Below, in pieces: positions 3,786 through 64,000 of a stretch of DNA of 64,000 nucleotides. The position numbers and the translations under genes are program-made. The stretch is from Triglochin maritima (taxonomy: Eukaryota; Streptophyta; Magnoliopsida; Alismatales; Juncaginaceae): assembly GCA_963682175.1 (NCBI GenBank), contig OY821775.1, positions 13,798,501 through 13,862,500 of the forward strand, written 5' to 3'. The stretch's first letter is position 1; the number at the start of each line of letters is the position of its first letter. Under the pieces are notes generated by a model. That model was not told the DNA's origin, did no database searches, and was given only the letters and a program-made list of their open reading frames with translations.

Positions 3786-4674
3786 TGTTGGGAGGGGGAT
3801 CTACGATGCACTAACTCGACACAGATTACACGCACCACGAAAAAACGAATATTGTATGCGGAAATTAACTTCTGACCCTCTCCCAAACTTAATGCAACAA
3901 GCAAACACAAATTAAGATGGAAATATCAAGCAATCACACAACACACCTGAAGCAAACCACGACACACGCGATTTTACAAGGTTCGGTAAAATGCCTGCGT
4001 CCTTGGGGGGTCTCCTGCGGGTTTCCTTTCCTTGAAGCTCTTCTCCAACAAGAGAAGTCTCCGAGATTACACAAGTTTGGAAGCAATGTGTCTCCCAAAG
4101 CACTCTAGATCTCTCTCTAGCCTAATCTCTCTCAAGGAAATAAAGATTGTATGTTGTGTTACAAGATTAGGGCAAAAAACCTATTTATAATGGGATAAAT
4201 TCGTATAGGAAATAAGTCAGATCGTGCATAACTGTCTCCAAAGGGTCGACCGGAATTGCCCATTCGGTCGACCGTTGTTCGGTTAATATGCATAACCGTC
4301 AATGTTCGGTCGACCACTCGCCCCGAGCCGGTCGACCGTTCCGCGCTTCTGAATAGCGTCCGAAGCTCCTGGACGTTTTCGGTCGACCGCGAGTCCAACA
4401 ACGGTCGACCGTTCTGCATGTCGATTTTCAACTCCCAGCACTTTCGCTTTTCGGTCGACCGCGTGCCCAACACCGGTCGACCGGATCTCGATCCATCCCG
4501 AGCTCCAAATCTACTGACGTTTTTCGGTCGACCGATTTCTCCGAAACGGTCGACCGTTCCTCGATCTGTTCCAAGCCTCCAGGCTCCTGGAGTAAATCGG
4601 TCGACCGTGACTTAAGCTCCGGTCGACCGTTTCTCCCTGTTTCCTGTATTAACAATTATAAACCAAATCCAACA
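3786..4674 (-). repeat. 3' LTR of copia element 1
   Basis: 889-bp long terminal repeat, the downstream one in element orientation. It carries a 12-site array of CGGTCGACCG palindromes at 4244-4628, preceded (plus-strand sense) by about 450 bp without such sites. Confidence 0.93.
4243..4628. repeat. Paired palindrome array in copia 1 3' LTR
   Basis: Twelve sites built on GTCGAC, most as full CGGTCGACCG. GTCGAC starts are 4245/4267, 4309/4331, 4382/4404, 4454/4476, 4527/4549 and 4600/4622. Every pair is exactly 22 bp apart; successive pairs are 64, 73, 72, 73 and 73 bp apart. The 12-bp spacers within pairs and the stretches between pairs differ in sequence. Seen directly; function is unknown. 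Confidence 0.95.
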
Positions 4675-4778
4675 ATCTCCACCTTGGTTAGAATTGTTAC
4701 CTTAGCCTTCTTTGCCTCCACATCCTTTGTGCTTCCTAGTAGCACCTTTAGCGTTACTCCCCGGAGCGCTTCTCCTTC

Positions 4779-6650
4779 TCACTCTCTGAGGACATTGAGA
4801 AGCATCGAGCACAACTCAAACTTCTCCCGATTGATGACCTTAGTCATCATATCTGCAGGATTCTCACTCGTGTCGATTTTATGGAGAACAACCTGCCCTT
4901 CTTCGATCCACTCCCGGATCCTGTGGTACCTTACTTCAATATGTTTGGTCCTTGAATGGAACGTCTGATCCTTGGCTAGATAAATTGCACTTTGACTATC
5001 ACAATGCAATTTGGTCACTTCCTGTTCCATCCCCAAAGAGCTAACCAAACCCTTCAACCATATAGCTTCTTTCCCGGCATCGACAACATCCATGTACTCC
5101 GCTTCCGTCGTAGACAACGTGGTAGTATGTTGGAGAACCGATCTCCAACTCACTGGACCTCCACCCAAAGTGAACACGTACCCTGTTGTGGACCTCCGCT
5201 TATCCAGATCTCCAGCATAATCTGAATCAACGTACCCCTCCACCTGCCTTTGTGCTCCATCTTTGGTGAACTTCAAGCTAACATCCATGGTTCCCTTCAG
5301 GTACCTCAACAGCCACTTCAACGCTTCCCAATGCTCTTTTCCTGGGTTAGCCATATAACGACTCATGAGGCTAACTGCGTGTGAAATGTCTGGCCTAGTG
5401 CAGATCATAGCATACATAACGGATCCCACTGCACTAGCATATGGAATTCTCTCCATATCTCTCCTTTCCTTTTCAGTAGAGGGGCTGGACTTCAACGAGA
5501 GCTTGAAGTGAGCACTAATAGGTGTGGCCACCTGCTTGGCATTCTCGAGATTGTACCTCTCGAGTATCTTCCGGATATAACTCCTTTGAGTGAGCAGGAT
5601 TTCACCTTTCTTGGTATCCCTGGAGATCTCCATACCGAGAATCTTCTTTGCACTTCCGAGGTCTTTCATCTCAAACTCCCCGTGAAGCTTCAGTTTGAGA
5701 TCATCTATATGCTTCATCTCCTTAGCCGTGATCAACATGTCATCCACATACAAAAGCAAGAACCCGTGTGTACCGTCTCCAAGACTCCGCAAGTATACAC
5801 AACTATCATAATTGCAACGTACAAAACCATTATTAATCATAAAAAAATCGAACCTTTTGTACCACTGCCTCGGCGATTGCTTAAGTCCATAGAGGGACTT
5901 TTTCAGCTTGCATACTTGTCCTTCCTTGTCTCGTGCGATGAACCCATCCGGCTGCCTCATATAGATTTCTTCCTCTATGTGCCGGTGAAGAAAAGCTGTC
6001 TTCATGTCAATCTGCTCTAACTCCATGTTGTCCATAGCTACCATAGCTAACAACACTCTAATAGAGGTGTGCTTTACAACGGGTGAGAAGATCTTGTTGT
6101 AATCGACCCCTTCCTTCTGAGCATATCCCTTTGCCACCAACCTTGCTTTATACTTTATCTCCTCCATAGGAGATGACCCTTCCTTCTTCCTGAAGATCCA
6201 CTTGCACCCAATCGCGCGCTTTCCCTTGGGAAGCTCCGTTAACTCCCAAGTTTGATTCTTATGAAGAGACTCCATCTCTTCGGTCATGGCCACCATCTAC
6301 TTGTTCCTGTCCTCCGGCTCAATAGCTTCTTCGAATGTGCAAGGGTCCTCACATTCGGTAACAAGTGCAAACGCAATACTAGCATCATCGTGACCATACC
6401 TCACCGGTGCCTTTGTGATCCTCCTTTGTCTTCCTTGAGCAATACTCTCTTGCTCAGCTTCCTCCTCTACTCGTGAGTCAGTTGTTTCTTGCTGAACTTC
6501 TTGATTCGATTCTTCCCTTGAAGTCGTGACCCCAACTTCAATTTCGTCTTCCTGCATGGGAACCTCTTGCTGCTCTTTCTCCTCAAGGCCCTTAAGCAAA
6601 CTTGTCTCATCAAAGACCACATTACTCCGTAGGAGTACCTTCTTGCTCAC
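4779..6650 (-). pseudogene. Copia 1 reverse transcriptase-RNase H
   Basis: C-terminal half of the copia polyprotein: it copies element RNA into DNA and degrades the RNA strand inside virus-like particles. Frame 6296-4779 shows the RT entry block (GCKWIFRKKEG, KARLVAKGYAQKEGVDY), the catalytic YVDDM motif (copia YVDD), GLKQSPRQWYKRF, and an RNase H domain with DSDYAGD and STTEAEYM. The linker frame 6650-6297 is acidic and ends with a TAG exactly where DRDKW-type proteins keep tryptophan, so a TGG to TAG change separates it from RT in the same frame. A second same-frame TAG at 6657-6659 separates it from integrase. RT and RNase H motifs themselves look intact. Confidence 0.9.
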
Positions 6651-6656
6651 CGGATC

Positions 6657-7680
6657 CTAAAGCTTATATCCTTTCACTGCCCCATCGTAACCAAGGAATA
6701 TGCACTCCTTCAATTTCGAATCCAGCTTCGACCGTTGTGTCTCATCGACCAACGCATAGGCTTTGCATCCAAATATCCTAAGCCTCGGGTAATCAAATAG
6801 CTCACCCGTCCACACTTCCTGAGGTGTCTTTAATTCAAGTGCCGATGACGGTGAGATATTTACTAAGTAACATGCAAGATCTACTGCTTCCGCCCAAAAA
6901 TCCTTCGACAGATTTGCATGAAGCCTCATGCTCCTTGCACATTCACATAGTGTCCTGTTCATCCTTTCAGCTACACCGTTTTGTCCCGGACTCCACGGTG
7001 TAGTGAAATGCCTCGTGACGCCTTCTTTCTCACAGAAACTTGCAAACTCCCTTGAGGTCCACTTACCTCCGTTATCTGTCCGTAAGTACTTAACAAATTT
7101 TCCTGTACTTTTCTCTACTTGGGCCTTCCATGCTTTAAACTTATCAAAGGCTTCAAATTTATTTTTCAGAAAATAAACCCATACCTTCCTTGAGAAGTCG
7201 TCTATGAATGTGACGAAATATTTGGCTCCACCCTTTGACCGAACCTGAGTCGGTCCCCAGACGTCTGAGTGCACATACTCTAGATTTTTCTTCGTCTTGT
7301 GGATAGCCGTCTTGAACCGAATCATGTGCTGTTTACCGAAGACACAATACTTGCAAAAATCCAATTTGCAGCTCTTAACACCCTTCAGCAATCCCTGTTT
7401 GTGTAGCTCACGCAAACCCTTTTCCGACATATGTTCAAGCCTCATATGTCAAAGTGTGAACCTGTCTTCGTCGCGTGCAACGTTTGTTGCATCTTTTCTT
7501 GCTACTGCATTCCCTAGCATTCAATACAAGTTGCCCACATTGGTTCCCTTTATCACTGTCATCGCCCCATGAGTGACCTTGATCTTTTCGTCCCCGCCGC
7601 CACCCGAGAGTATCAAGCTCTCCTAGAGAAATCAGATTCTTCTTAAACTTTGGTACGTGACGCACCCCGTCAGCATTCGA
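6657..7680 (-). pseudogene. Copia 1 integrase
   Basis: Frame 7445-6657 carries the zinc-binding region (His from HMRLEHMS, Cys pair CKLDFCKYC), the first catalytic Asp in HSDVWGP, the second in RTDNGGKW and the catalytic Glu in NGVAERMNRT, followed by the GKAY-type C-terminal region. The order is that of a copia integrase (DDE recombinase inserting cDNA into the genome). Upstream, the linker to protease is broken: in the reading frame, TGA replaces an expected Trp codon just before HMRLEHM (about 7446) and another TGA follows NLY (about 7519), both one-base changes from TGG. The frame from protease is also lost near 7690. Confidence 0.88.
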
Positions 7681-7682
7681 AT

Positions 7683-8712
7683 TCACCCATTGAACATCTT
7701 GAACTGTACGAAACCAATACCGACAGTAGTGCACGGTGCATCGTTGCCCATAACAACTATCCCTCCTTTCAGTGGCTCATAGGATGTGAACCACTCCTTA
7801 TCCGGGAACATGTGAAATGATGCTCCTGTATCCAAAATCCATCCAGATGATGATTTGTCAATACCTGCAGCGTAAACTGTAAGAACGTCGACTTCGTTCT
7901 TCTCCTCCACCACACTGGCGGAATTGTACCCGTCTTTTCCTTTCTGCAGCGACTCCTTGAAGGCCCTACAATCACGCTTCATATGACCAACCTTCTTGCA
8001 GAAAAAACATTCAAAGGATCTCCCCTTTGATTTGGACCGGCCCCTTCCGTTGCTTCTTCCTTTGTTACCCGTTCTGCCCCTTTTCGGTGTTGCGATCAAT
8101 CCTTCACCCTTCTCGAAAGAGTTACTACCAGAATTCCTCCTTGCATCATAGGAGATCAGCGTGCCCTTGACCTCCTCCAACACCAACGAATCCTTGCCAT
8201 ATATGATCGTATTCACCAAATTCCCATACGAGTCCGGCAGCGACGTCAATAACAACATTGCCTTGTCTACATCCTCCATCTTGTCCTCAAGCTGAGTCAG
8301 ATCAGCTATCAACTTATTGAACACCGAGAGATGCTCATGAACGGTGTGTTCTCCTTCATCCGAAGCATGTACAGCTGACGCTTCAATTCAACTTGTTGCT
8401 AAGGTTCTTCATCATGAACCTCTCCTCCAGAAGTTTCCAATATTCTGCCGCAGTCTTCACCAATTCCTCGAAAAGCAAATCATCCGAGAGGCACAACTCG
8501 ATGATTCCTATAGCCCGGAGATTCAGACTCTCCCACTTTTCGTCGGTCGTCTTCGACGGCTTCTTCTCAATCCCATCCAACGTCAGCAATAGCCCGTCCG
8601 TCTGAGACATCAACGCACGATCCCTCCGTTGCCATGTTGAGAAGTTCCCTTTTCCGGTGAATTTCTCCACCCGAAAATTCCACGCTTCTTCCCCCATCGA
8701 AAGTGCAACCAA
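7683..8712 (-). pseudogene. Copia 1 gag and protease
   Basis: Frame 8712-8383 encodes the start of gag (MVALSMGEEAWNFRVEKFTG), the capsid-type domain with the TWQRRDRALMSQ region typical of copia gag. A one-base frameshift near 8388 moves reading to frame 8324-7683, which continues with FNKLIADLTQ, a basic linker, one CCHC zinc knuckle (CFFCKKVGHMKRDC, nucleic-acid binding) and the aspartic protease active site DTGAS. The protease then loses frame near 7690. The Met start lies 15 bases from the 5' LTR, close behind the primer binding site, which fits a compact leader. Confidence 0.88.
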
Positions 8713-8713
8713 A

Positions 8714-8725
8714 GCTCTGATACCA
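8714..8725 (-). other. Primer binding site, copia 1
   Basis: On the minus strand this reads TGGTATCAGAGC, the complement of the 3' end of plant initiator methionine tRNA, two bases from the 5' LTR (8728). Confidence 0.93.
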
Positions 8726-8727
8726 GC

Positions 8728-9618
8728 TGTTGGGAGGGGGATCTACGATGCACTAACTCGACACGGATTACACGCACCACGAAAAATCGAATATTGTATG
8801 CGGAAATTAACATCTGACCCTCTCCCAAACTTAATGCAACAAGCAAACACAAATTAAGATGGAAATATCAAGCAATCACACAACACACCTGAAGCAAACC
8901 ACGACACACGCGATTTTACAAGGTTCGGCAAGGTGCCTACGTCCTTGGGGGGTCTCCTGCGGGTTTCCTTTCCTTGAAGCTCTTCTCCAACAAGAGAAGT
9001 CTATGAGATTACACAAGTTTGGAAGCAATGCGTCTCCCAAAGCACTCTAGATCTCTCTCTAGCCTAATCTCTCTCAAGAAAATAAAGATTGTATGTTGTG
9101 TTACAATATTATGGCAAAAAACCTATTTATAATGGGCTAAATTCGTACAGGAAATAAGTCAGATCGTGCATAACTGTCTCCAAACGGTCGACCGGAATTG
9201 CCCATTCGGCCGACCATTGTTCGGTTAATACGCATAACCGTCAATGTTCGGTCGACCACTCGCCCCGAGCCGGTCGACCATTCCGCGCTTCTGAATAGCG
9301 CCCGAAGCTCCTGGATGTTTTCGGTCGACCGCGAGTCCAACAACGGTCGACCGTTCTGCATGTCGATTTTCATCTCCCAGCTACTGTCGCTTTTCGGTCG
9401 ACCGCGTGCCCAACACCGGTCGACCGGATCTCGATCCATCCCGAGCTCCAAATCTACTGACGTTTTTCGGTCGACCGATTTCCCCGAAACGGTCGACCGT
9501 TCCTCGATCTGTTCCAAGCCTCCAGGCGCCTGGAGTAAATCAGTCGACTGTGACTTAAATTCCGGTCGACCGTTTCTCCCTGTTTTCCTGTATTAACAAT
9601 TATAAACCAAATCCAACA
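8728..9618 (-). repeat. 5' LTR of copia element 1
   Basis: 891-bp LTR, highly similar to the one at 3786-4674. It should hold promoter and polyadenylation signals, but I cannot place them with confidence. Confidence 0.93.
9185..9571. repeat. Paired palindrome array in copia 1 5' LTR
   Basis: Same layout as in the other LTR: GTCGAC-type starts at 9187/9209, 9251/9273, 9324/9346, 9397/9419, 9470/9492 and 9543/9565. All pairs are 22 bp apart; pair period is 64 then 73 bp four times. The copy at 9209 is GCCGAC and the copy at 9543 reads CAGTCGACTG, changes consistent with transitions at CpG. Confidence 0.95.
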
Positions 9619-9864
9619 ACCTTTACTATTCTACAATTACTGTGTCGTACTTGTCTCTTCACTCCACAACACAGGCTTGGTCTCACAACAACAAAAGAAT
9701 GGTTCACCGGTACACAAGCTTTATTCCACTGATTGCAATGGGACTTTGGTCCCCTACTCATTCTCGTTTGAGGAGATTTACAAAGACGAAATTTTTATGG
9801 ATATTTTACAAGATCCTCCACTGTAGAATGCACAAAACATGACAACGTCGATGGCTATCAGGCG

Positions 9865-10526: not shown

Positions 10527-10731
10527 TATTAAACGGAATTAGGGAGAAAGAGGTTGATTTCTATATATTATTCTGAGTTTTACATGAGTTTGTATATATA
10601 TACATCACTAAGTTGGGTGACCGTTTGAAGTTAATGCTGAGTGAAGAGATGCATCCTTTGGGAGAAGACGTGATGGTTGACGAGGAGGCGCGTTGCATGT
10701 TGGTGAAGATGTGCGTCTGCATATTTCAACA
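10527..10731 (-). repeat. 3' LTR of copia element 2
   Basis: 205-bp LTR. The polyprotein stop codon (TGA, 10726-10728) lies inside it: the last sense codon and the stop are made from the LTR's own first bases. Confidence 0.93.
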
Positions 10732-12711
10732 CTCCCCCTCAAGTTGGGTCTGGAAGAGATTGTAGGTGCCTAACTTGATTATGATGGTGTCGAACGGTTG
10801 TTTACTTAGGGCTTTGGTGAAGATGTCCGCCAATTGTTCTTTACTGGGGACGTATGGAACTTCTATTTCTCCAGCTTGAATCTTCTCACGGATGAAGTGA
10901 CAGTCAACTTCAATGTGTTTGGTCCTTTCGTGGAACACGGGGTTGGAAGCAATGTGTCGTGCGGCGTTGTTGTCGCAAAACATATTCATAGCTTTAGTGT
11001 GAGTTTGACCCATATCGTGAAGAAGTTGCTTTATCCAAATGAGTTCACTGGTGGTGGACGCCATTGCTCGATATTCTGCTTCTGCACTTGATCGAGCAAC
11101 CACCTTTTGTTTCTTACTTCTCCAAGTAACAAGATTTCCACCAACAAATGTGCAAAAACCGGTAGTTGACCTACGATCATGGCTTCCTGCCCAATCAGCA
11201 TCTGAAAAACCGATGATGTTGTTAGAATTGTTATTTTTCATTAGCAACCCTTGTCCTGGTGTTTGTTTTATGTACCTCAGAATTCTATCAATAATATCTA
11301 AATGTGATGTTCGAGGTGCATGCATGAATTGACTTACTATACTAACAGCAAAGGTAATGTCGGGTCCGGTCATGGTTAAATATATAAGTTTTCCTACAAG
11401 TCTTTGGTATTGGTGAATGTCTCTAATCGGTTCACCGTCGGTTGGACTGGTTTTGAGATTTGCCTCAATGGGTGTACTAGCTGGTCTAGCTCCAAGTTTT
11501 CCTGTTTCTCTTAAGAGGTCTAGGGCATATTTTCTTTGTGATAAAAATAGACCCCTTTTTGAGTATGCAATTTCTATTCCTAAGAAATATTTTAGGAATC
11601 CTAGATCTTTTATATCAAATTTGGTTTTTAGATAGTGTTTAACTTGAGTAATTTGTTCATTATTATCACCAGTAATGATGATGTCATCTACGTAGACCAA
11701 GACTATGACAATCTCTCCTTTACGATGCCTAGTGAACATAGATGCGTCAGCAGAGGATTTAAAGAAACCATAAGCAAGAAGAAAGTGACTAAGTTTTGCA
11801 TACCATGCGCGGGGTGATTGCTTTAGGCCATAGATGGCTTTGTTGAGTTTGCATACCTGGTTGGGAGAAGTGTTGTATCCCGGAGGGGGTACCATGTATA
11901 CTTCATCTTCAAGGGTGCCTTGAAGAAAAGCATTTCTGACATCCATTTGATAAAGCTTCCATCCTTTGTTAACTGCTATGGAAAGAAGAACCCGAACAGT
12001 ATTCATTTTTGCTACTGGTGCGAAGGTTTCTAGGTAGTCAAGCCCATAGGTTTGAGTATACCCTTTTGCTGCAAGGCGAGCTTTATACCTTTCGATAGTA
12101 CCATCGCTATTATATTTTATTTTGTAAACCCATTTGCATCCAACGGGTTTTGTTTTATTTGGTCTAGGGATGAGAGTCCAAGTGTTGTTGGTTTCTAGGG
12201 CTTTAAGTTCTTCTCGCATTGCTTTTTGCCATTTAGGATTGCTACTGGCTTCTTCATAGTTTTTTGGTTCTAGGGTTTCACTTATTTGGTTTAGGAAAAC
12301 CCTATAGTTTGGTTGTATTTGTTTGTAGGTGAGGTAGTTCTGAATGGGATAAGTTACTTGAGAGGTGATAAAATCATTAAACCTAGTGGGAGGACGTTTT
12401 GGTCGGGTAGACCTCCTTGGGGTTGGAGCTCTTGTTTCTCCTTGTCCTCCTCCTTCTTCGTGTCCTTCTCCTTGTCCTTCTCCTTCTCCTTCTCCTTGTC
12501 CTCCTCCTTCTTCGTGTCCTTCTCCTTGTCCGTGTGCTTTGATGTTGAACTCAGGTAGAACTTGTGAGGAGTCTGGACGAGTTTGTGTTGTAGGGTTGTA
12601 GTAGGGTTCAGTTTCCCTAAATATTACATCCCGGGAGATATACATTTTACAAGATTCAGGGTCAAAGCATTTATACCCCTTTTTTGAAAAGAATAACCAA
12701 GAAATAAGCAT
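10726..12711 (-). pseudogene. Copia 2 reverse transcriptase-RNase H
   Basis: A 661-codon open frame holding the whole RT-RNase H half. Visible blocks: WQKAMREELKALETNNTW, GCKWVYKIKYNSDG, the YVDDIIITGDNN catalytic motif, GLKQSPRAWYAKL, RNase H DADWAGSHDRRSTTG and SSAEAEYRAM. No internal stop, so this part could still be translated, but it is out of frame with integrase by one base near 12685 (a run of T on the minus strand). An acidic low-complexity stretch with repeated GQGEGHEEGG lies between integrase and RT (about 12410-12545). Confidence 0.92.
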
Positions 12712-13600
12712 TTTACAGAATTGCTATCAAATTTATCTAAGCGTTTCTTATGAACAAAGCATACACACCCGAAGATTTTAAGATGATCCAGGGTTAGTTT
12801 TCGTCCTAAGAGTATCTCAAGTGGTTGTTTATTCTGAAGAGTAGGACTAGGAAGACGATTTATTAGATAAGTCGCAGTTAAGATAGCGTCAGACCAAAAT
12901 CGTTTGGGAACATGATTTTGAAAGAGCAATGACCTTGTTACATTTAGAAGATGGCGATTTTTCCGTTCCGAGACTCCATTTTGTTCAGGGGTGTGTATAC
13001 ATGTTAATTGGTGTAATATTCCCCGATTTTTCAAAAAATTTTGAAAGTTGTGGCTGGTGTATTCGGTCCCGTTATCTGTCCTTAAGGTCTTAATTTTAAA
13101 ATCATACATGTTTTCAACAAAAATTGTAAAATCGCAAAAAACTTGAAAAACTTCGGATTTATTTTTGAGAAGATAGGTCCAAGTATTTTGTGAGAAGTCA
13201 TCGATAAATAGCACAAAATATTTAAAACCGTTGTAAGACTCAACAGGAACGGGTCCCCAAATATCGGAGTGAACTATTTCGAAAGGAACACTTGATTTGG
13301 TTTTAGAGTTAAAAAGGGTAATCTAGTTTGTTTAGAATACTGACAAACATCACATGCATAATCAGAAGAAATAAAAGGAAATAACGTTTTTAAAACCAAA
13401 GAAGATGGGTGTCCCATTCGTTTGTGCCATAGAATATGGTTTGGTAAACTAGTAGTATGAAAACTCCTGTTTTGAGCCTCTAAAACATAAAGTCCATTGG
13501 TATGAATCCCTTTACCAATCGTCTTCCCTGTAGTTCGTTCCTGAAAGAATACATCATTAGGGGTGAATATAACATTACAATTTAAATTTTGTGTGATTTT
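12624..13600 (-). pseudogene. Copia 2 integrase
   Basis: Frame 13214-12624 includes FIDDFSQNTWTYLL, the catalytic RTDNGTEYTS and the NGVSERKNRHLL block carrying the third catalytic residue, then the FGCVCFVHK C-terminal region. The zinc-binding part with its CDVCQYSKQ motif lies at about 13300-13450 in another frame; a single missing base near 13315 in a run of T restores continuity. An in-frame TAA at about 13603 lies just upstream, between protease and integrase, where related proteins have serine in LLSVSK. Confidence 0.88.
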
Positions 13601-14998
13601 TTATACTGAAAGAAGATTAGAGGTGAAAGTAGGTACATATAAAACATTTTTATTTACTTGATCTAATATGGTGGTTTCTCCTATCCCTTTTATTTCTACT
13701 TGATTATTATTTGCAACAGTCACAAAATTATGAAGAGAGTTCACACGTTTCTTTATTTTCCTTATTAGACTAGAATTTCCGGTCATATGATCAGTAGCAC
13801 CGGAATCAATTATCCATTGATTATTATTTATATGTCTAAGATTTTTTCCTGTTTTGTTGGCAGAGTAATTTCTGGAACAAGGGGATATACTTGCGCAATT
13901 ACCTAAACCCTGAGGGGTGGACTGCAAATATGCGCTGAGGTGGCCCAGCAGTTGGTCTAGTGGAATCGGGTCGGATCTGGAGCTGGATCCGGGTCCGTTG
14001 GATGCAGCATCTGGTCGGATCCCTATTTCGGGTCGGGTTAAAGGGAACCCGGATCCGACCGAATCGCGTGAGGTTATAAAACCTCGTGGATCCGAGCGAA
14101 TAATCGATTCGCCTTCCCATTTTCTTTGTTCCTCTTCTGCGTTAGGGTTTGCCGCCGCGCTGTTTCCTTTTGGTCCGCCGTTCCTTTTTTTGTTCCGATG
14201 ATCACCTCCTTCCCGTGTTGGTCGAAGATGAGGGTGTAGGAACCAACATGAGTTCCTGTTGTGCCCGGTCTTTTTACAGTTGTCACATGTTTCCTGAGGT
14301 TTATTTCCGTATTTTCTTGTCTGATTTTGGGGTTTTCCGGCGAAGAACGCCTGGTTTTCTGAAGATCGGTCCGCGATCTGAGCGGTGGTCCGACGAGATT
14401 CCTCCCGTTGGATCATCGCGATGATGGATGCGAGATCAGGGACTGTGGGGGTCATCAAGACTTGGCTTCGGATGGCTTCATAGCTGCCGTCGAGTCCGAT
14501 GAGGAACTGATAGATTTGATCTCGCTCCTTTCGTTCGAGTAGGATTTTTGGGTCAGCAGTCGTGGGTTCGTAGATGGCGAGCTCGTCCCATCCACGCTGC
14601 AGTGTCCCGAGATACTCCGTGATTGTTTGTCCTTGCTGTTTTGTCTGTGACAAATCGTGTTTTAGTTTAAAAATGTGAGCAAAGTTGTTGGTTTTACCGT
14701 ATATGCTTTGAACGCCGTCCCATAGCTCCTTTGCGGAATTTTTGTAAAGGAAGATAGCCCCGATTTTGGATGTCATGGAGTTGATTATCCATGTCATTAC
14801 AAGATGGTCTGTCGCCTGCCACTCTTCTTGTTTTGTTTCGGTGGCATCCTCCTCTGGTTTTCTTGCTGTCCCGGTGATGTGTCCCAGCTTTCCCTTCCCG
14901 CTGAGAGCTAGCGTCACAGCCCGTGCCCAAGATAGATAGTTCTGTCCGTTGAGCAACTGTGACACCAGTTTTGGAGCGTTTGTTTCTGAGTCCGCCAT
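13601..14998 (-). pseudogene. Copia 2 gag and protease
   Basis: Open frame of 465 codons starting MADSETNAPKLVSQLLNG, with the gag domain blocks NYLSWARAVTLALSGKGKL and DELAIYEP, a CCHC zinc knuckle (CDNCKKTGHNRNSC), a Ser/Pro/Arg-rich linker and the aspartic protease active site IDSGATDHMTG (copia D-S-G-A form). It ends at a TAA at the LLSV position where the family continues into integrase. Start chosen as the first Met after the primer binding site leader. Confidence 0.9.
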
Positions 14999-15169
14999 TT
15001 TTGATTTTTCCTTCAGGGGTTTTGGATGTCGGGGTTTGTTTTGTCTCCTTCAACCCCCTTGAAAGGCGAAGGTGATGAGTGGTGGGATTCTTTTGGTTTT
15101 GGTTTTTTTTTCTGAGGTGGATCGATGATGAGTGGGGGCACTCTGAGATTCACCAGTGATGGAACACTT

Positions 15170-15181
15170 GCTCTGATACCA
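15170..15181 (-). other. Primer binding site, copia 2
   Basis: Minus strand TGGTATCAGAGC, directly abutting the 5' LTR with no spacer. Confidence 0.93.
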
Positions 15182-15388
15182 TATTAAACGGAATTAGGGA
15201 GAAAGAGGTTGATTTCTATATATTATTCTGAGTTTTACATGAGTTTGTATATATATATACATCACTAAGTTGGGTGACCGTTTGAAGTTAATGTTGAGTG
15301 AAGAGATGCATCCTTTGGGAGAAGACGCGATGGTTGACAAGGAGGCGCGTTGCATGTTGGTGAAGAGGTGCGTCTGCATATTTCAACA
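15182..15388 (-). repeat. 5' LTR of copia element 2
   Basis: 207-bp LTR, near-identical to 10527-10731; contains an alternating TA tract two bases longer than the other copy. Confidence 0.93.
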
Positions 15389-15880: not shown

Positions 15881-16235
15881 TGTTAAATTTGGTTGGTCCA
15901 CCACCTCAACAAAACCTAAGCACTTAGGTGAAGGGTAGTGGATCCAACTTTATTATATAGTGTTGTACACTTTTTGTGTTTAGCAATGTGAGACTATTTT
16001 CTCAACACTCCCCCGCACGCGTGACCGGGATAATTTTCTCCGTGTCTACGCGTGAACAATATAGGTTGGAGTGAACCCCCACAGGTCAATCGACCCGCTC
16101 TGATACCATGTTAAATTTGGTTGGTCTACCACCTCAACAAAACCTAAGCACTTAGGTGAAGGGTAGTGGATCTAATTTTATTATATAGTGTTGTACACTT
16201 TTTGTGTTTAGCAATGTAAGACTATTTTCTCAACA
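15881..16235 (-). mobile_element. TRIM (miniature LTR retrotransposon), 355 bp
   Basis: Two 127-bp direct terminal repeats (15881-16007 and 16109-16235), both starting TGTTAAATTTGG and ending CTCAACA, differ at four positions, all transitions. Between them are 101 bp with no coding capacity, including the primer binding site complement GCTCTGATACCA just before the right repeat, so orientation is minus. Flanks GTCTG/GTCTT are a 4-of-5 target duplication. Each LTR has an internal palindrome CCTAAG-CA-CTTAGG. Confidence 0.9.
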
Positions 16236-21584: not shown

Positions 21585-22005
21585 CGATCGACCGAAGGAG
21601 GCAACCCGGTCGACCGTTTCCTCAAGGGAATCAGTCGACCGCTTCCACAAGAGAATCAGTCGACCGAAACGTCTGCAACGGTCGAACTATTTGCGCAAAA
21701 CATAAGTCACAACGGTCTACCGAAGGTCTAAAACCGGTCGACCGAACGATGTCAAAATCCGGAGTCTGGTCAACATTAATTCAAACTATCGGTCGACCGA
21801 CTCAGGGTCTCGGTCGACCGAACTAACAGGGTCATCCTAATATTTCTACGTCATATAACGGTCGACCGCAACATGCAAAACAACCAGTACACTTAAGTTC
21901 CGGTCGACCGAACACAAGGAATCGGAATCGGTCGACCGAAACACAACAGACAGACAAAATTACATACATTTGGTCGACCGCCCGAAGGCCCTGGTCGACC
22001 GTTGG
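21585..22005. repeat. CGGTCGACCG palindrome array in reversed gypsy solo LTR
   Basis: About 18 full or one-base-changed copies, including pairs 21587/21609 and 21659/21681 (22 bp). Variants include AATCAGTCGACCG and GGTCTACCG. Confidence 0.9.
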
Positions 22006-22397: not shown

Positions 22398-24445
22398 TGT
22401 AGGATTTCATGTTTAATTATACATATATATTTTCGAAATTTTTATGTATAATAAGGATCAATTACAATTTTCTTTGATTTATTTCATGCATGCATCGGTT
22501 TGTTTTAACATCTAGTTTCAAAACTCTATTAAAACAAACAAGAGCTCCGAAATTCATACCTAGAAGTTCTCAAAAACTTCTTGAAGATTCGGAGACGTTG
22601 GGGATGCTTCTCGCCGCGCCGGATGCCTCCGAGTATTCACCAAACTCTAAACAAGATCGGAGAGAGGGAAGCTAGTCTCTCGATCTCCGATAGGGTTTAG
22701 AATCTAATTACTAACCCCTCTTTAATTCCCTTGAGAAGATGGTCTCTTAAGAACTAAAACTAAACTTAAGAATTAAGGGATTTTCGTGGAGAATTATGGA
22801 GAGAGAATTTTGCTCAAGAGAATAATGAATTAAATTAAGGAGGTAATGAGATAACCTTGTATTTATAGGTTCTCTCCAAATTACCTATTCATGTGCAACC
22901 CCTTGCCCATGATCTCATGCAAAATTCCATCTAACCATCCATTATTTAATAATAAATAATATTAGCCACGAATTAAATCAATTATGGACCAATTCCATGC
23001 ATGATCTAATTAATTCTTAAATTAATTCTGCATAAAACCGTCTGGACCAGTCGACCGTTACGAAGGTCCGGTCGACCGCTCGAACCCAATTTCGGTTGAC
23101 CGTGCAAGATTCGGTCGACCGTTCTTAACGTAGAATATTTCATCGCAATGTTCGGTCGACCGACCGATAGATTCGGTCGACCGTTCCGAACATACGAAAA
23201 TTCCTTGTTATCGGTCGAGACATGTCCGGTCGACCGTGCACCTTCGGTCGACCGTTATCCATTAACCGGTCGACCGTTTGCACAGTCTTGCAGACTTGTC
23301 AAATTTCGGTTTAACCCCTACAAAATTTGACATTTCGGGATTAGTAGTAAATTCACAACTTATGTAACATATTATCCTATGTAATGATCAATCATTACAC
23401 CCCATAATATTTACATCACATATGAATTTAATTTAGATTCTAATTATGTTATTAATCACAACATAATTTTGATTTTGCTTGTTCACCCCATGTGTCATAT
23501 TTTCTACATGAAACCCGACACATCCTATAAACTCAAAATCCTCATTTCTTGTTTCCCAGTTTTGTGGTGTGACCTATGGGAGGATCTAAACTAAGTTGGC
23601 AGTGATATTAAGAGCTTAATATCACAAGCTATAAGCGGTATCTAGCTACACATTATAGCTCCCAATTAGTTAGATGTCTTAATTCCACTCGAACCAAAAC
23701 CCGATCCACTTAGTGATGGAGTGCATCACTTGTGTCCGTCCCTTGCCTCATGATATTAAGAATACACACAAAGTAGTATTGTGTCATCTTTGTATTAGTA
23801 TTCATTTCTTGATCTCTTTAAGCTAGTTATAAATATGTGACTTAACTCAAATCACATTGTGCGCATTATAACTTTGCTTTATCAAGGGGCCCACTAATAT
23901 CATCACTCAATTAAGAGGGGCAATGATAATCTTTTGACTAACTATCTTCTCCAACAAAAGTTGTACTTAACCAACCAATGCCTTTACACTACACTGATCG
24001 ATAGTTCAAGACACTGATCTAATTAAGTATTCCTTAAGTGATTAGATATAAGTCTCATATCAAAGGACCAAAGACACAGTAAAATATTAATGACACAGAA
24101 ACACATTTCTATAATATTTTACTTATTAGGTCTATTCAGTATACAAAAGTAATATTTTCCTCTTTTGCATACACGTGTCGTCACTCACTTGTAGAGCTAC
24201 AATGATCTATGACCAACACGACAATCTTAACTCGGCAATTAATGTCCCATGTTAATTACCATGATTGCGAATATCTTTTGTTTTATGCAAACCAATATCT
24301 TTCAGAGCTCTACGGTTAAGGACCAAGAGCCTCTTCCTTAACACTTCTAAAAGACGAATAACATAAAAAAGGAACAAAATGATTTCTCATTCAATTCATA
24401 ATAATTGACATTTAAAAGTAAAACTTTTAGAACACATTCCCTTCA
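22398..24445. mobile_element. Solo LTR, third family, copy 1 (nested)
   Basis: TGTAGGATTTC...CATTCCCTTCA flanked by TSD CCACC (22393-22397, 24446-24450), 2048 bp, no coding capacity. Related copies lie at 40374-42875 (reverse) and 43355-45272. Shared blocks include CCAGTTTTGTGGTGTGACCT and AGAGCTCTACGGTTAAGGAC. This copy carries a CGGTCGACCG array at 23048-23277. Confidence 0.88.
23048..23277. repeat. CGGTCGACCG palindrome array in third-family solo LTR copy 1
   Basis: GTCGAC-type starts near 23050/23071 (21 bp), 23095/23114, 23155/23176 (21 bp), 23214/23229 and 23247/23269 (22 bp). Flanks show single transitions such as CGGTTGACCG. Confidence 0.9.
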
Positions 24446-43354: not shown

Positions 43355-45272
43355 CTACTAGTCTAGCAATCAATCTTTAATTAAGCTTAGAATGTAGCTA
43401 ATAACCCCTCTTTAAGCTCCTGAGATTTCTCTCTCCAAAACTTAAAACTATTAAGAGATTTTCGTGGTGATTAAGAGAGGGATTAGAGAGAGAGAATTAT
43501 ATTGCATGTAATAAAACAAGTAGATGAGGGGTCCTTTTATATGCTCCCAAAACATTTATATCAAGAGTTATTCTCTAGTCATGATCTCTTGCTTTTTCTC
43601 TCCTAAAATTAATCCAAAATTGTCACATAAGTATCCTAAAAACGTTTGATCAAATCTCGAATTAATCCAACCCATGATCTAATTATTCTCATAATAATTT
43701 AGGCAGAAATCGTGTTGTTCGGTGAACTGAGAATTCTTCTCGGTTGACCGAACCATACGATTTTATTTCAAGTTCGGATGACCGTGAGCTAGACAGTCGA
43801 CCGAACATTCATGAGAAAAATTCTCTGGAAAAATTAAGACGATCCGTGTCTTGCCCTAGTCAACCGTTGACCCACCAAAATTTCTCCTAACAAATCTCTT
43901 CGGACGACCGTGTCACTTTCGGTCTACAAAAAATATCCCAAGATAGCTCCTGGATATTTTCTCTCGGTTGACCGCTCTAGCCGGTTTACCGAATCCAATT
44001 ATCCAAGCACTCCAAACAATCTCGGTAAATCACTTGCATTCATCCGACCCTTGTTCGGTTGATCGTTCCTAAGATATCTCGGTCGACCGAACCCAACACG
44101 GTTTACCGTTTTGATCCTAATTTTGCCTTTGTCAAATTTTGGATTCATTTCCAACAAAATTTGATTTTTTGGGGTTTTTAGCAAATTTATATCTTATGTA
44201 ATATATTATCCTATGTAATATTAAATTATTACACCCCATAATATACACCTCATATAAATTTATCCATGATTCTAATTATGTCAATTCTCAAGACATATTG
44301 ATTTTATTGATTCACCACATGTGTCTCTTTTCACATGAAACCCGACACATCAAATGAACTCAAAATTAAGCTTCTTGTTTCCCAGTTTTGTGGTGTGACC
44401 TATAAGAGAATCTAATCCAAATTGGCAGCGATATTAAACACTTAATATCTCAAACTATAAGTGATATCTAGCTACACATTATAGTTACTCAATCAGCATA
44501 GATGTCTTTGTTCCACTCGAACTAAACACGATTCATTTAGTGATGTAAGTACACCACTTGTGTCTGTCCCTTGCCTCATGATATTAAGAATATATACAAA
44601 GTATAAATGTGTCACATTTGTATTATATTCATTTCTTGATCTCTTTAAGCTAATTATAACTATGTAACTTAACTCAAGCTACATTGTGCACACTAAAATT
44701 TTGCTTTATCGATGGGCCTACTAATATCATCACTCAATAAAGAGAGGCAATGGTAATCGTTTGACTAGCTATCTTTTCCAGCACATTTTATGTTCAACCA
44801 ACTATTGTCTTTATCATTATACTCATTGATAGTTTTTGACAATAATCAAATCAATCACTTCTTGAGTGAAAAGATATAAGTCTCATATCTTAGGATCCAA
44901 GACACAGTAAAACATTAATGACACGAAACACATTTCCATAGTGTTTTACTTGTTAGGTCTATTCAATATATAAAAGTATTTTTTTCCTTTTTTATATACT
45001 TATGTCGTCAATTATTTGTAGAGCTACAACAATCGATGACCAACACGACAATCTTATGTCAGTAATTAATGTTCCATGTTAATTACCATGATTTTGAATA
45101 ACTTTTGATTTATATAAACCATTATCTTTTAGAGCTCTACGGTTAAGGACCAAGTGCCTCTTCCTTAACTCTTCCAAAAGATGAAAATCATAATAAAGGA
45201 ACAAAATGTTTTCACATCCAATTCATAATAATTGACATATAAAAGTAAAACTTTTAGAACACATTCCTTTCA
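43355..45272. mobile_element. Solo LTR, third family, copy 2 (5' truncated)
   Basis: Aligned with copies 1 and 3 from the CAATCAATCT / TAATAACCCCTCTTTAA block to the end CATTCCTTTCA at 45272. The first several hundred bases found in the other copies are missing and no TSD is seen, so a deletion probably took the left end. It carries a decayed palindrome array at about 43722-44110 (forms CGGTTGACCG, CGGATGACCG, CAGTCGACCG, CGGTCGACCG). Confidence 0.75.
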
Positions 45273-48370: not shown

Positions 48371-48812
48371 TGTGTTGTAAAGTCGTGGAAGTGAGAGAGA
48401 GAGAAGGTATGGGGTGGTATGGGTGGAGTGATGTGTGTATGGAAGGAGGTATGGTGGGAGTATGGGTTAGGTGTAGGGTTTGTTTATATAAACCAAAACT
48501 CAACCCTTTCTCCCCTTTTTCTCTTCTCCATTTCGTTTCCACTCAAACTCACCCATTCTTCTTGCATCCCGGCGACCAGAGGAGGAAGGAGAGGAGCTCC
48601 GGCGGCGTGGTGGAGGCGAGCACGAGGAAGGAGCGTGAGGAGGTCTTCGGAGACGGCGGTGCGCGAGCGAGGCTCCGGCGGGTCTTCATCGTCTTTAAAG
48701 GTATGCCAAGTCTTCATAGTAACTCCCCAAGAGGTGTGGGAGTGTAGGGGGCGGCGTTGGTGCCGTTTTCCCCGGTGTAACCCACTGAACCGAGGTTGAA
48801 GACGACTGGTTC

Positions 48813-49365
48813 GGTCGACCGTTGTGTGTCTCGGTCGACCGAACATCGTCTAAATGATGCCTGTTCAGTGGCGATATTGTAGTGTTTCGGTCGACCGTGT
48901 GAGGTTCGGTCGACCGATATTTTATAAAAATAACTTGCTGCCCGAAAACGGTCGAACGACGTCTGTGTGACGGTTGACCGTTTATGCCAAATTTTAGCGG
49001 GAATATTTTATAAGGGTTATATTAGTCCGGTCGACCGGTGGTTGTTCGGTCGACCGATCCCAGTAGATAGGGTAGACAGACCTTCGGCCGACCGAGTGTG
49101 CGTCTCGGTCGACCGAACTGCGCAAAGTCGGTCAAGAGCGTTGACCATCTAAACGGTCGACCGCTCTGGATCCGGTCGACCAACTGCGTGCAGTTTTCCT
49201 GTAGTGAAGTGTCTGCTGATCCGGTCAACCGAAAGAGTTTCGGTCGACCGAATGCAGTGGGCAGGATTCATGCAGTTTCCTTATCGGTTGAACGGACCCT
49301 GGTTCGACCGACAAGATATATATGTATATAAAACGTATAGCGTAGACCTTCCAAACGGTCGACCG
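48813..49365. repeat. CGGTCGACCG palindrome array in forward gypsy solo LTR
   Basis: About 16 sites, most in pairs: GTCGAC-type starts 48814/48834, 48890/48909, 48951/48973, 49030/49049, 49087/49108, 49156/49175 and 49224/49243, spacings 19-22 bp. Confidence 0.92.
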
Positions 49366-55719: not shown

Positions 55720-56613
55720 ATATTGGAAGTCCGACGTCTATGTATAGACGACACACACAAAGATGTCGGATCTGGGAGTGCTTATATCCGACGTATATAC
55801 CCCTGTACATCCGACGTATATGTCATTTTCTGTAGTAGTGCAAGCTGAAATCAAAATATTAAGTAAGCGACTCGTGCTTATTCTCTCTAGCTTAAAATAG
55901 ATTTGATATTTGGTGAGAAGTGTACTTCAAAATGTCAAAGACCTTACAAATTGTAGGATTCTAGCCTAATCCTAATCCTAATTGTGCTTTGATGTTGATT
56001 AGTTGGTGATTAGGGGGAGATGGAGATGGATGGCTTGGATTGAATGTGGGTGGATGTGTGGTTGAGATGGAGAGGAGTGGAATGGATGGTGGAGATGGAA
56101 GGATGGGGAGATATTTAGAGGTGAATTCTCTCCCTCTCTTCCCTCACGTTCTCTCTCTCTCTCTCGTTGATCTCTCTCTCTCACTCACGTTCTCTCCCTC
56201 TCTTAGTGCATTCCGGCGAGGAAGAAGGGGTGTTCTCCGGCATAGGAAGGATCGGCTCGAGTGGTGGATTGGAGGTGAGTTCGTTGTGCGCCAACCGTTC
56301 CTTTTGCTTCGTTCTCTCTCCCTCAACCTAACTCGAGTTCTGTGGTCGTGGGTGGTAGTTGGAGGTTGCCGGAGGTGGTGTTGTGGCTGTGGATCGTTGA
56401 GGAGGTGATTGATCGTCGTTTGGACGCGATAGTCGTCGACGGATCGTATTTGGGGAGACGTGCTCGAGGAGGCGTCGTCGCGGTTCTTCAAAGGTCTCTT
56501 CAGACCTTCTAGTATGTCAAGCTCGCTCACTTAATTACCGTGAGTATTTGGAAGTCGACGGTAGGCCGTTTGGCTCGTCGCAAGTAAATGTGCAGCAAAT
56601 TTCACTGCCTGAT

Positions 56614-57190
56614 CGGTCGACCGGTTGGTGCAAACGGTCGACCGTTCGTCGAACGATGCCTTGTGGCGGTCGACCGATTGTGCGTAAAAGGCAAACCTGG
56701 AGAGTTTCGGTCGACCGGGTCCCCTTTGCTGGTCGACCGTGTGCACTGTCTTAAGTCGGTTGGGAGCGTTGACCATCTAAACGGTCGACCGCTCTTTGAC
56801 TTTGTTCGACCGTGACTTAAGTGAGTTTGGGGTCGGTTCGACCGAATGTGGGTTCGGTCGACCGAACCTGCGTGTTGAGCGTGAGGAACGCTCTGGATGA
56901 AATCGATCGACCGAGGAGGTCTCGGCATTCGACCGGTTTCAGGACGCGAGAGTGGGATTATTCCCTGTGGGATCGGTCGACCGAAGGATGCTCGGAGTTC
57001 GACCGATCGGACGTTTTGTTCGTTGAACATGGGAGTTGACCATCTAAACGGTCGACCGTCCCGTGATTTTGGTTCGACCGAACGAGTGTGGTTTTGGGAA
57101 TCGGTCGACTGATGGAGTGTCGGTCGAGGTGGATTGCCCTGTATTTGCTTGATTCAGTCGACCGAGACTTTTGGTTCGGTCGATCGTTTG
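56614..57190. repeat. CGGTCGACCG palindrome array in chromovirus 5' LTR
   Basis: About 19 sites in 570 bp, half of them exact CGGTCGACCG and the rest one or two bases off, typically GGTTCGACCG or CAGTCGACCG. One 31-bp stretch present in the 3' LTR array is deleted here near 56650. Confidence 0.93.
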
Positions 57191-57289
57191 TGTCCAGTTT
57201 TGCACTATGGAGGTGTTGTTGTTGTGATCGTCCGTGTGGGGCGAGTTGTGGTGTCGATGTTCTTCCGGCAAGTGTGCTAGGTGCAGGAG

Positions 57290-57785
57290 GGTTGCGGTGG
57301 TTGGTTGAGATTAGACCTGCAGCCCCGTAACCGTGTGTGAGCTTGGGATTGGCTGAAATAGGCCTGAGGCCCATCTTAGAATTGTGGTGTTGCGGCGGTT
57401 GGTTGAAAGAGACCTGGAGCCCCGTGACTGTATGAGAGCTGCGGTTGGTTGAAAATAGACCTGGAGCCCAACTAGTCTGTACGGAGTTGGTTGAGATTAG
57501 ACCTGGAGCTCCGTAGTGCGTTCGGGTTGGTTGAAATTAGACCTGGAGCCTGAGCAGGGACCGCGTGTATGGGTTGTTTGAAAATAGACCTGGAGCCCTT
57601 AGACGTTTGGGTTGGTTGAAATTAGACCTGGAGCCCTTGGTCGTGTCGTAATAGCTAAGGTTGGTTGAGATTAGACCTGGAGCCCCGTGACTGTGGTGGG
57701 TGCGGCGGTTGGTTGAGATTAGACCTGGAGCCCCGTACCTGCGGTGTGTGCTGTGGTTGGGTGAGAGAGCCCTGGAGCCCAGCCT
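57290..57785. repeat. Minisatellite in chromovirus 5' LTR
   Basis: About eleven copies of a unit with core GGTTGGTTGAAATTAGACCT followed by GGAGCCC, at 40-55 bp intervals (for example 57297, 57389, 57442, 57485, 57527, 57571, 57610, 57659, 57711, 57757). The core is conserved; the linkers vary. Confidence 0.9.
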
Positions 57786-57864
57786 GGTTGTGATGCTTTT
57801 CTTGTTTAGTAGAATTGCATGCTAGGGTGCCTTTTCATTTCATGCATTTAGAGTTTGGCATACG

Positions 57865-57884
57865 GGGTTTCCTTCTGGAAACTC
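57865..57884 (+). promoter_or_regulatory. Conserved LTR hairpin (chromovirus copy)
   Basis: GGGTTTCC-TTCT-GGAAACTC, an eight-pair stem with a four-base loop, 280 bp from the LTR end. Expected in the transcribed leader; role unknown. Confidence 0.6.
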
Positions 57885-57989
57885 AGGCAGTGTTGCATGT
57901 TTACTTTCAGGCCGTGATCGGCGTTAGGGGGTGGTGACCGAGGAGAGGAGCGCTGCTACCGGATCCAGCTTTCTCTCGGTTGAGGTCGT

Positions 57990-58030
57990 GTGATTACTGT
58001 TTCCTTCGTTTATGCTTTCGATGTAATCAC
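57990..58030 (+). promoter_or_regulatory. Second conserved inverted pair near LTR end
   Basis: GTGATTAC at 57990-57997 and GTAATCAC at 58023-58030 pair perfectly. The same pair is at 50037-50044/50065-50072 and, 7 of 8, at 20528-20535/20562-20569. Confidence 0.55.
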
Positions 58031-58167
58031 AACTTTTGTAAACTCTGATGTTCGGATAAATATATATATATGTTGGTGCACCTGTGTTCCTTTATTTGCG
58101 TAATATCCTCTGTTGATTAAGTGTTTATAAATTTTAAATTTTCCGTTGCTTTGAGGATGTTACAACT

Positions 58168-62748: not shown

Positions 62749-64000
62749 TGTAGGATTCTAGCCTAATCCTAATCCTAATTGTGCTTTGATGTTGATTAGT
62801 TGGTGATTAGGGGGAGATGGAGATGGATGGCTTGGATTGAATGTGGGTGGATGTGTGGTTGAGATGGAGAGGAGTGGAATGGATGGTGGAGATGGAAGGA
62901 TGGGGAGATATTTAGAGGTGAATTCTCTCCCTCTCTTCCCTCACGTTCTCTCTCTCTCTCTCGTTGATCTCTCACTCTCACTCACGTTCTCTCCCTCTCT
63001 CAGTGCATTCCGGCGAGGAAGAAGGGGTGTTCTCCGGCATAGGAAGGATCGGCTCGAGTGGTGGATTGGAGGTGAGTTCGTTGTGCGCCAACCGTTCCTT
63101 TTGCTTCGTTCTCTCTCCCTCAACCTAACTCGAGTTCTGTGGTCGTGGGTGGTAGTTGGAGGTTGCCGGAGGTGGTGTTGTGGTTGTGGATCGTTGAGGA
63201 GGTGATTGATCGTCGTTTGGACGCGAGAGTCGTCGACGGATCGTATTTGGGGAGATGTGCTCGTGGAGGCGTCGTCACGGTTCTTCAAATGTCTCTTCAA
63301 AGGTCTCACTTAATTACCGTGAGTATTTGGAAATCGACGGTAGGCCGTTTGGCTCGTCGCAAGTAAATGTGCAGCAGATTTCACTGCCTGATCGGTCGAC
63401 CGGTTGGTGCAAACGGTCGACCGTTCGTGAAGAAAATACGGGTTCTGCCTGAAATCGGTCGAACGATGCCTTGTGGCGGTCGACCGATTGTGCATAAAAG
63501 GCAAACCTGGTGAGTTTCGGTCGACCGGGTCCCCTTTGTCGGTCGACCGTGTGCACTGTCTTAAGTCGGTTGGGAGCGTTGACCATCTAAACGGTCGACC
63601 GCTCTTTGACTTTGTTCGACCGTGACTTAAGTGAGTTTGGGGGTCGATTCGACCGAATGTGGGTTCGGTCGACCGTACCTGCGTGTTGAGCGTGAGGAAC
63701 GCTCTGGATGAAATCGGTCGACCGAGGAGGTCTCGGCGTTCGACCGGTTTCAGGATGCGAGAGTGGGATTATTCCCTGTGGGATCGGTCGACCGAAGGAT
63801 GCTCGGAGTTCGACCGATCAGACGTTTTGTTCGTTGAACCTGGGAGTTGACCATCTAAATGGTCGATCGTCCCGTGATTTTGGTTCGACCGAACGAGTGT
63901 GGTTTTGGGAATCGGTCGACCGATGGAGTGCCGGTCGAGGACCGATGGAGTGCCGGTCGAGGTGGATTGCCCTGTATTTGCTTGATTCGGTCAACCAGGA
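62749..64000 (+). repeat. 3' LTR of chromovirus (first 1252 bp)
   Basis: Nearly identical to the start of the 5' LTR, with indels around the palindrome array. It runs off the window before the minisatellite and hairpin. Confidence 0.93.
63393..63995. repeat. CGGTCGACCG palindrome array in chromovirus 3' LTR
   Basis: Pairs with GTCGAC/TTCGAC-type starts at 63395/63416, 63458/63479, 63520/63542, 63594/63615, 63648/63668, 63717/63739, 63787/63809, 63862/63884 and 63915/63934 (19-22 bp). A 22-bp tandem duplication at about 63921-63962 is absent from the 5' LTR. Confidence 0.92.

Follow-up and report, generated by a model that had tools for sequence, protein, structure and literature searches.

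Repeated cis-elements in the U3 region of copia LTRs are known from Tnt1 and Tto1, where they function as stress-responsive enhancers; unlike the arrays of the Ty1/copia element described below (element A), these repeats are present in few copies, consist of other motifs and are family-specific. The LTRs of Sireviruses carry palindromic CGG-CCG repeated motifs upstream of the TATA box, which were called Sirevirus-specific and absent from 'classic' copia elements and which, in the parts of the 2010 description consulted, have no known binder (Bousios 2010, PMC2829016). In the same parts, the 10-bp palindrome CGGTCGACCG is given as the "repeated motif" of a Vitis Sirevirus LTR, again upstream of the TATA box, and a word search of the main text brought up no treatment of the motifs' spacing, periodicity or helical arrangement (PMC2829016). 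Among the literature matches listed, this was the only paper seen to give the exact 10-mer as a motif of a transposable element (TE), and the string was also found within a primer in PMC12316476; a helical spacing rule for LTRs was not seen in the literature consulted. In maize, the Sirevirus palindrome CACCGGACNNNGTCCGGTG forms CGG-CCG clusters in the cis region of the LTR and has also been reported in Helitrons; its core differs from that of CGGTCGACCG, and it was interpreted through secondary structure and small RNAs in the sections consulted (PMC10760457).

Dense arrays of short motifs are also described for the VANDAL21 transposons of Arabidopsis, in which VANC21 targets same-orientation YAGTATTAY motifs that are enriched in one TE family and rare in other TEs, as far as the consulted sections of PMC5735166 go. 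The arrays reported here are similar in that short motifs lie densely in non-coding TE regions and have grown by tandem repeats. The VANDAL21 elements, unlike those described here, are DNA transposons with a non-palindromic motif and a TE-encoded binder, so that the VANC precedent, to which a reading of this DNA from sequence alone had appealed, is unproven for one palindrome that recurs across several families (PMC5735166, same sections). The sequence-only reading had also put the arrays forward as a candidate for an undescribed system, but the consulted part of the 2010 paper already tabulates the 10-mer for the Vitis Sirevirus, with its LTR cluster placed ahead of the TATA box (PMC2829016). 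The class of motif is known; what is new here is its occurrence in other copia and in gypsy hosts, its scale, and a helical spacing rule that the literature consulted does not give.

The window (the whole 64-kb stretch of DNA analysed in this study) contains element A, a Ty1/copia element of 5.8 kb, on the minus strand at 3786-9618. Its 3' LTR (3786..4674) reads TGTTGGATTTGG...CCCTCCCAACA on the minus strand, its end being placed through TG...CA and the AT/TG junction, and its 5' LTR (8728..9618, minus strand) was placed by self-BLAST and the junction; the two are 96.4% identical over 892 positions (self-BLAST spans 3786-4675 and 8728-9619). The primer binding site TGGTATCAGAGC (8714..8725), which we take to be of the initiator-Met type, and a single polypurine tract AGGTGGAG (4677..4684) followed by AT/TG, both read on the minus strand, give the orientation of the element and therefore place the palindrome array in U3. 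On the same strand lie a gag/zinc-knuckle ORF with a copia-type gag (7683..8387), an integrase ORF (6657..7448; rve and gag_pre-integrs) and a reverse transcriptase ORF (4779..6296; RVT_2, E 7e-77), the last of which stops some 105 bp short of the 3' LTR.

The array in the 3' LTR (4243..4629) consists of twelve palindromes in six 22-bp pairs, ten being exact copies of CGGTCGACCG and two differing from it by one mismatch. The sequence-only reading had reported twelve GTCGAC-centred sites in this LTR, 22 bp apart within each of six pairs and 64, 73, 72, 73 and 73 bp from pair to pair, and the positions of the sites (4245-4622) bore out all six pairs and exactly these distances. For the matching array of the 5' LTR (9185..9572; 8/12 exact), the pair-to-pair distances of 64, 73, 73, 73 and 73 bp were likewise found; the accompanying claim of 22 bp six times does not hold on the 11 GTCGAC sites remaining there, and is recovered when the twelfth, which has decayed to CGGCCGACCA at 9207-9216, is counted. 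Reading the sequence further located a TATA-like box, ATTATAAATAG (4181..4191, minus strand), ~52 bp downstream of the array in the sense of transcription. The sequence-only reading gives neither the minus-strand orientation nor this placement in U3, and it makes no reference to the arrays in other LTRs of the window, those of Ty3/gypsy among them.

Sirevirus repeated motifs are defined as a CGG-CCG palindrome in at least 8 copies of high identity, and the 12 sites of element A, 10 of them exact, agree with this definition; by reading, the position of the cluster in U3, upstream of the TATA box, is also found in element A and in a second copia family, FAM3. The AT/TG attachment site that follows the polypurine tract in Sireviruses is present in element A as well, as AGGTGGAG-AT-TGTTGG. 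No copy of the Sirevirus polypurine octamer AGGGGGAG, of which Sireviruses have several in the linker, was found inside 3786-9618, the tract of element A being AGGTGGAG, and the length of 5.8 kb, with the reverse transcriptase ORF near the 3' LTR, departs from the 8.5-14 kb, linker domain and often env-like gene of Sireviruses. Two of the 120 matches listed bear TNT 1-94-like names from their sources. Because element A lacks the Sirevirus polypurine tract, linker and size, and because gypsy elements also carry arrays, the restriction of the motif to Sireviruses fails here. What is held in common with the Vitis Sirevirus motif, as given in the parts of PMC2829016 consulted, is the same CpG-rich 10-bp palindrome, repeated many times in a cluster of the upper LTR that lies a short way ahead of a TATA box; what differs is its presence in a copia element without Sirevirus hallmarks, in a second copia family and in Ty3/gypsy, the helical lock, and some 360,000 copies.

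The window holds 61 exact copies of CGGTCGACCG, and not one appeared in any of 100 dinucleotide shuffles; the copies are distributed over eight places, six of them outside element A. Two of the six belong to element B, a Ty3/gypsy element on the plus strand, whose 5' LTR (55952..58164) carries an array at 56614-57186 with 8 exact copies and whose 3' LTR, incomplete at the window end (62749..64000), carries one at 63393-63922 with 10. The ORFs of element B (59956-62715) encode RVT_1, RNase H and integrase, and its domain order of RVT_1, RNase H, integrase and chromodomain is that of chromodomain Ty3/gypsy elements, the Chromo and rve matches lying below the cutoff (22.2 bits with a cutoff of 25.1, and 22.1 with a cutoff of 32.6, respectively); Chromo scores 25.6 in the relative L070. 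By eye, TATA-like stretches are seen both before and far after the array of element B, which is not clearly upstream of a TATA box. The remaining four arrays, at about 21.6-22.0, 23.0-23.3, 43.7-44.1 and 48.8-49.4 kb, lie in what appears by eye to be LTR-like sequence, and are named here after the families defined below. These are FAM1 (21585..22001; 7 exact; minus orientation by reading) in a gypsy-like LTR assigned to gypsy via L070, FAM4 (23048..23276; 7 exact), the degenerate FAM7 (43741..44089; 5 sites at one mismatch or fewer, 1 exact) and FAM2 (48812..49365; 10 exact).

Genome-wide, the exact 10-mer is present in 359,535 copies in the 1.06-Gb assembly, which the relatives of its transposons mark as that of a plant, as compared with 90 copies of the control word, which is CGGTCGACCG read backwards and is itself a palindrome. 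Pairs of exact copies separated by a gap of 0-30 bp number 100,280 and those with a gap of 31-60 bp number 95,235, the control giving 0 in both classes; gaps of 21-25 bp and 26-30 bp are found in 3,192 and 3,384 pairs, respectively. Measured from start to start, the first 100 listed pairs with a gap of 0-30 bp include 94 at 18-25 bp (48 of them at 22 bp), none at 26-30 bp, five at 31-33 bp and one at 40 bp. By eye, 49 of the 50 listed places with a gap of 21-25 bp are spaced at 31-33 bp from start to start and one at 35 bp, and many of the 40-bp pairs among the listed matches with a gap of 26-30 bp enclose a third site.

For comparison between families, 40 arrays were collected from the window and, by way of the pair list, from the first 783 kb of contig C1, with sites accepted at one mismatch or fewer; the C1 clusters at 458564-458792 and 655719-656070 were left out of this set. 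Clustering with the palindromes masked gave 11 families, nine of which have at least 8 sites. FAM0 (element A) and FAM3 are copia, with 60% amino-acid identity in pol, and FAM6 (element B) and FAM1 belong to Ty3/gypsy and are 90% identical across the integrase region; FAM4, FAM5 and FAM7 are unassigned. Element B (56745-56781), FAM2 and FAM10 have in common a stretch of 29-37 bp that ends in GTTGACCATCTAAA, lies beside a palindrome and occurs in either orientation, and the LTR of FAM2 resembles that of element B by eye. With the palindromes masked, neither element A nor FAM3 showed a match to element B. The copia and gypsy arrays have separate origins; in view of the kinship of FAM1 with FAM6 and of the stretch that FAM2 and FAM10 have in common with element B, the independent origins may, by our estimate, number only two to five. 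In FAM3, TATATAAAG was found by reading ~75 bp downstream of the array. Among the 393 distinct sites, 266 are exact, and single changes fall at half-site positions C1 (33), G2 (21), G3 (45), T4 (6) and C5 (22); variants with a centre base, which are known from rice (CGGTC-N-GACCG), numbered 0 in the 40 arrays. The palindromes are GC-rich, and the first two flanking bases are rich in A/T.

Helical phase was analysed in one member from each of nine families, drawn from 783 kb of one chromosome and the window. Adjacent spacings tend to 21-22, 31-33, 41-42, 50-53, 63-64, 73, 94, 106, 115-117 and 125-128 bp, and off-phase spacings of 25, 47-49 and 56-59 bp are also present. At 10.5 bp the Rayleigh R is 0.63 for all adjacent spacings (n=115), 0.56 for the distinct spacing values of each family (n=71) and 0.54 with the pair class omitted (n=47; best 0.585 at 10.8), and for each of these spacing sets the observed maximum was reached by 0/2000 jittered sets. 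Coherence over whole arrays (~220-670 bp) peaks at 10.47 bp with a score of 63.9 (bootstrap over families 10.44-10.51); the score is 8.4 at 10.2 bp, and the best of 2000 jittered sets scored 31.0. When the two copia families were removed the peak was still at 10.45 bp, with a score of 43.3. Dealing the spacings anew among families gave a mean score of 38.5 and shuffling their order inside each array gave 43.6, with 0/2000 sets reaching the observed coherence in either case, and the register is therefore kept beyond neighbouring sites.

Phase is shared with nearby exact sites by exact sites (mean cosine 0.60, n=232) and by those with one mismatch (0.62, n=97) or two (0.44, n=56), and is not shared by sites with three mismatches (-0.08, n=32) or by the control word (-0.08, n=25). 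By family, FAM2 (gypsy-like) is weakly phased (mean phase cosine 0.43) and FAM1 (gypsy) shows no coherent phase (R 0.49 at its best period, 11.22; mean cosine 0.0 at exact sites). Exact-exact pairs at 41-70 bp, taken alone, show modest periodicity, with R of 0.40 at 10.47, 0.41 at 11 and 0.40 at 12. Taken over the nine array families, the sites show a phase lock at 10.47 bp, a period close to that of free B-DNA (10.4-10.5 bp). The helical phasing suggested for element A by the sequence-only reading thus extends to the nine-family sample, where the observed coherence lies above every null set.

Sequence constraint was assessed on an alignment of 40 family A LTR copies, comprising the two from the window and 38 others; similarity over the array was the criterion by which these best 40 were taken from 962 candidates. 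Before any correction, non-majority bases make up 2.2% in palindromes, 2.4% in linkers, 2.7% in spacers and 3.0% in the rest, these rates being close because the palindromes are CpG-rich and column 4316 is polymorphic. Variant alleles found in two or more copies were treated as inherited, and the expectation was stratified by base context. On this basis, the palindromes contain 22 inherited variant alleles against 36.5 +- 4.3 expected (1/10,000 permutations), and against 30.6 expected when compared with array spacers and linkers alone (94/10,000). The proposal that the palindromes had been retained while the sequence between them diverged is borne out to the extent that palindromes change less once base context is allowed for; it thereby passed the refuting condition set by the sequence-only reading, an equal rate of change in palindromes and linkers, even though the raw rates are close. 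Private variants in the palindromes number 37 against 46.3 +- 4.8 expected (300/10,000). The stronger deficit of inherited variants suggests constraint during element replication more than a lower mutation rate, and the somewhat smaller number of private variants makes a mutational share in the deficit possible. That low mutability alone conserves the palindromes is disfavoured, since private CpG change per column is similar inside the palindromes (0.41) and outside them (0.48 and 0.38).

Between more diverged members, where a third member was used to set the sites, substitution divergence ranges over 0.02-0.11 within sites and 0.10-0.36 outside them in all seven families with at least 3 members, a contrast that may be exaggerated where the palindromes anchor the alignment. 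Gaps show little if any reduction in the sites of FAM0 (6.7 vs 7.5% elsewhere) and FAM2 (16.4 vs 17.2%), and they are commoner in the sites of FAM3 (16.1 vs 9.7%). In family A, 8 indels were counted in the 387 bp of the array, 3 of them exactly 22 bp long, and 32 in the other 503 bp; this difference points to constraint but is given no weight because the copies were chosen by array similarity.

A dimeric factor seated on one face of the helix is suggested jointly by the exactness of the palindrome, by its conservation and by a period close to the pitch of B-DNA. We consider that the arrays are probably composite, putative protein-binding elements in LTR control regions, with each CGGTCGACCG as the target of a sequence-specific dimer that is most likely a transcription factor of the host and would bind cooperatively on one helix face as an enhancer or derepressor. 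Each 10-bp palindrome would hold one dimer, and cooperative seating of the dimers on one face would keep the sites near whole turns of B-DNA (about 21-22, 32, 42, 52, 63 and 73 bp). In the two copia families, the array just upstream of the TATA-like box would act as the enhancer or derepressor, and the position of this box ~50-75 bp after the array in both families is in keeping with an enhancer. As two superfamilies and the Vitis Sirevirus have the same 10-mer, the factor is more probably of the host than encoded by a TE. Protein binding, the dimeric state, host encoding, and activation rather than repression are what we infer for the arrays. As candidate binders, WRKY (W-box), ARF, DREB, LBD and Gal4-like factors were considered and set aside, and nothing pertinent on LOB-domain palindromes was present among the literature matches listed.

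A wider reading is advanced with more doubt. Ty1/copia and Ty3/gypsy LTRs might, in parallel, have come to exploit one putative dimeric plant DNA-binding protein, which would form an ordered one-face assembly over ~200-700 bp of B-DNA, the LTR carrying a helical-register code made up of site identity and phase. As each site has three CpGs, such a factor would have to tolerate, or even read, CG methylation, and this property would enable the elements to be active in methylated chromatin. To our knowledge, eukaryotic control regions seldom keep register for tens of helical turns. LTR elements would have in this factor a common activator or gatekeeper, and the 360,000 sites would present it with a large sink. 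The spacing yields a physical prediction, namely that half-turn changes should break the array and full-turn changes should not. The question of what binds the Sirevirus motif is testable in this genome, where the site is exact, abundant and common to two superfamilies.

Other explanations of the arrays were weighed against cooperative binding of a host dimer. Anti-silencing of the VANC type, in which silencing marks are removed by a TE-encoded protein bound to dense motif arrays while non-autonomous or foreign families parasitise it via the same motif, is unlikely in our view. In its favour, private CpG change is not raised in the palindromes, and VANC targets as described in the consulted sections of PMC5735166 are likewise dense clusters in non-coding parts of TEs that have expanded by tandem duplication; but an identical palindrome in Ty1/copia, Ty3/gypsy and the Vitis Sirevirus better fits a host factor. 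Folding of palindrome-rich LTR transcripts, which would make the arrays chiefly siRNA hotspots or structural RNA, seems to us improbable. The array of element A does fold far better than its shuffles (z -8.0, 0/100), and small RNAs are attracted to the palindrome clusters of maize Sireviruses in the sections of PMC10760457 consulted. Good folding would, however, be expected of any array of identical palindromes, and targeting by the host would favour the loss of sites, which in fact show little inherited change. The pitch of A-form RNA is about 11, and the lock at 10.47 bp is near that of B-DNA instead.

That the palindromes set the rotational positions of nucleosomes, without a specific factor, is quite improbable. 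GC-rich sites with A/T-rich flanks at multiples of about 10 bp would suit this explanation, but the nucleosomal period is 10.2, at which the whole-array score is a small fraction of that at 10.47, and rotational positioning needs no exact 10-mer. Very improbable, and already disfavoured, is a mutational by-product of recent tandem duplication of a 73-bp unit with gene conversion, without selection. It is consistent with the 64/73-bp units of family A, with the indels of exactly 22 bp and with the recurrence of many spacings inside a family; against it, spacings vary between families yet tend to helical multiples, the palindromes persist while the spacers diverge, and element A and FAM3 do not match element B once the palindromes are masked.

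Several further features were observed. A second LTR element in the window (10527-10731 / 15182-15388) has ~207-bp LTRs that are 97.1% identical and a primer binding site at 15170-15181; the exact palindrome is absent from 10527-15388, which provides a natural contrast within the same window. Direct repeats of 127 bp (15881-16007 / 16109-16235), 96.9% identical and with a primer binding site at 16097-16108 in between, are presumably a TRIM (miniature LTR element). In the LTR of element B, a second repeated motif, ~GGTTGGTTGAGATTAGACCTGGAGCCC, with a period near 48 bp, lies directly downstream of the palindrome array at 57291-57780. Tandem repeats of 22 bp, ATTTTCTGTCCGGAATAAGTGT, are present in 6.9 copies at 1-154. 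Outside the window, twelve stretches of viral contigs (L097-L108) each contain one close pair of the 10-mer, probably by chance.
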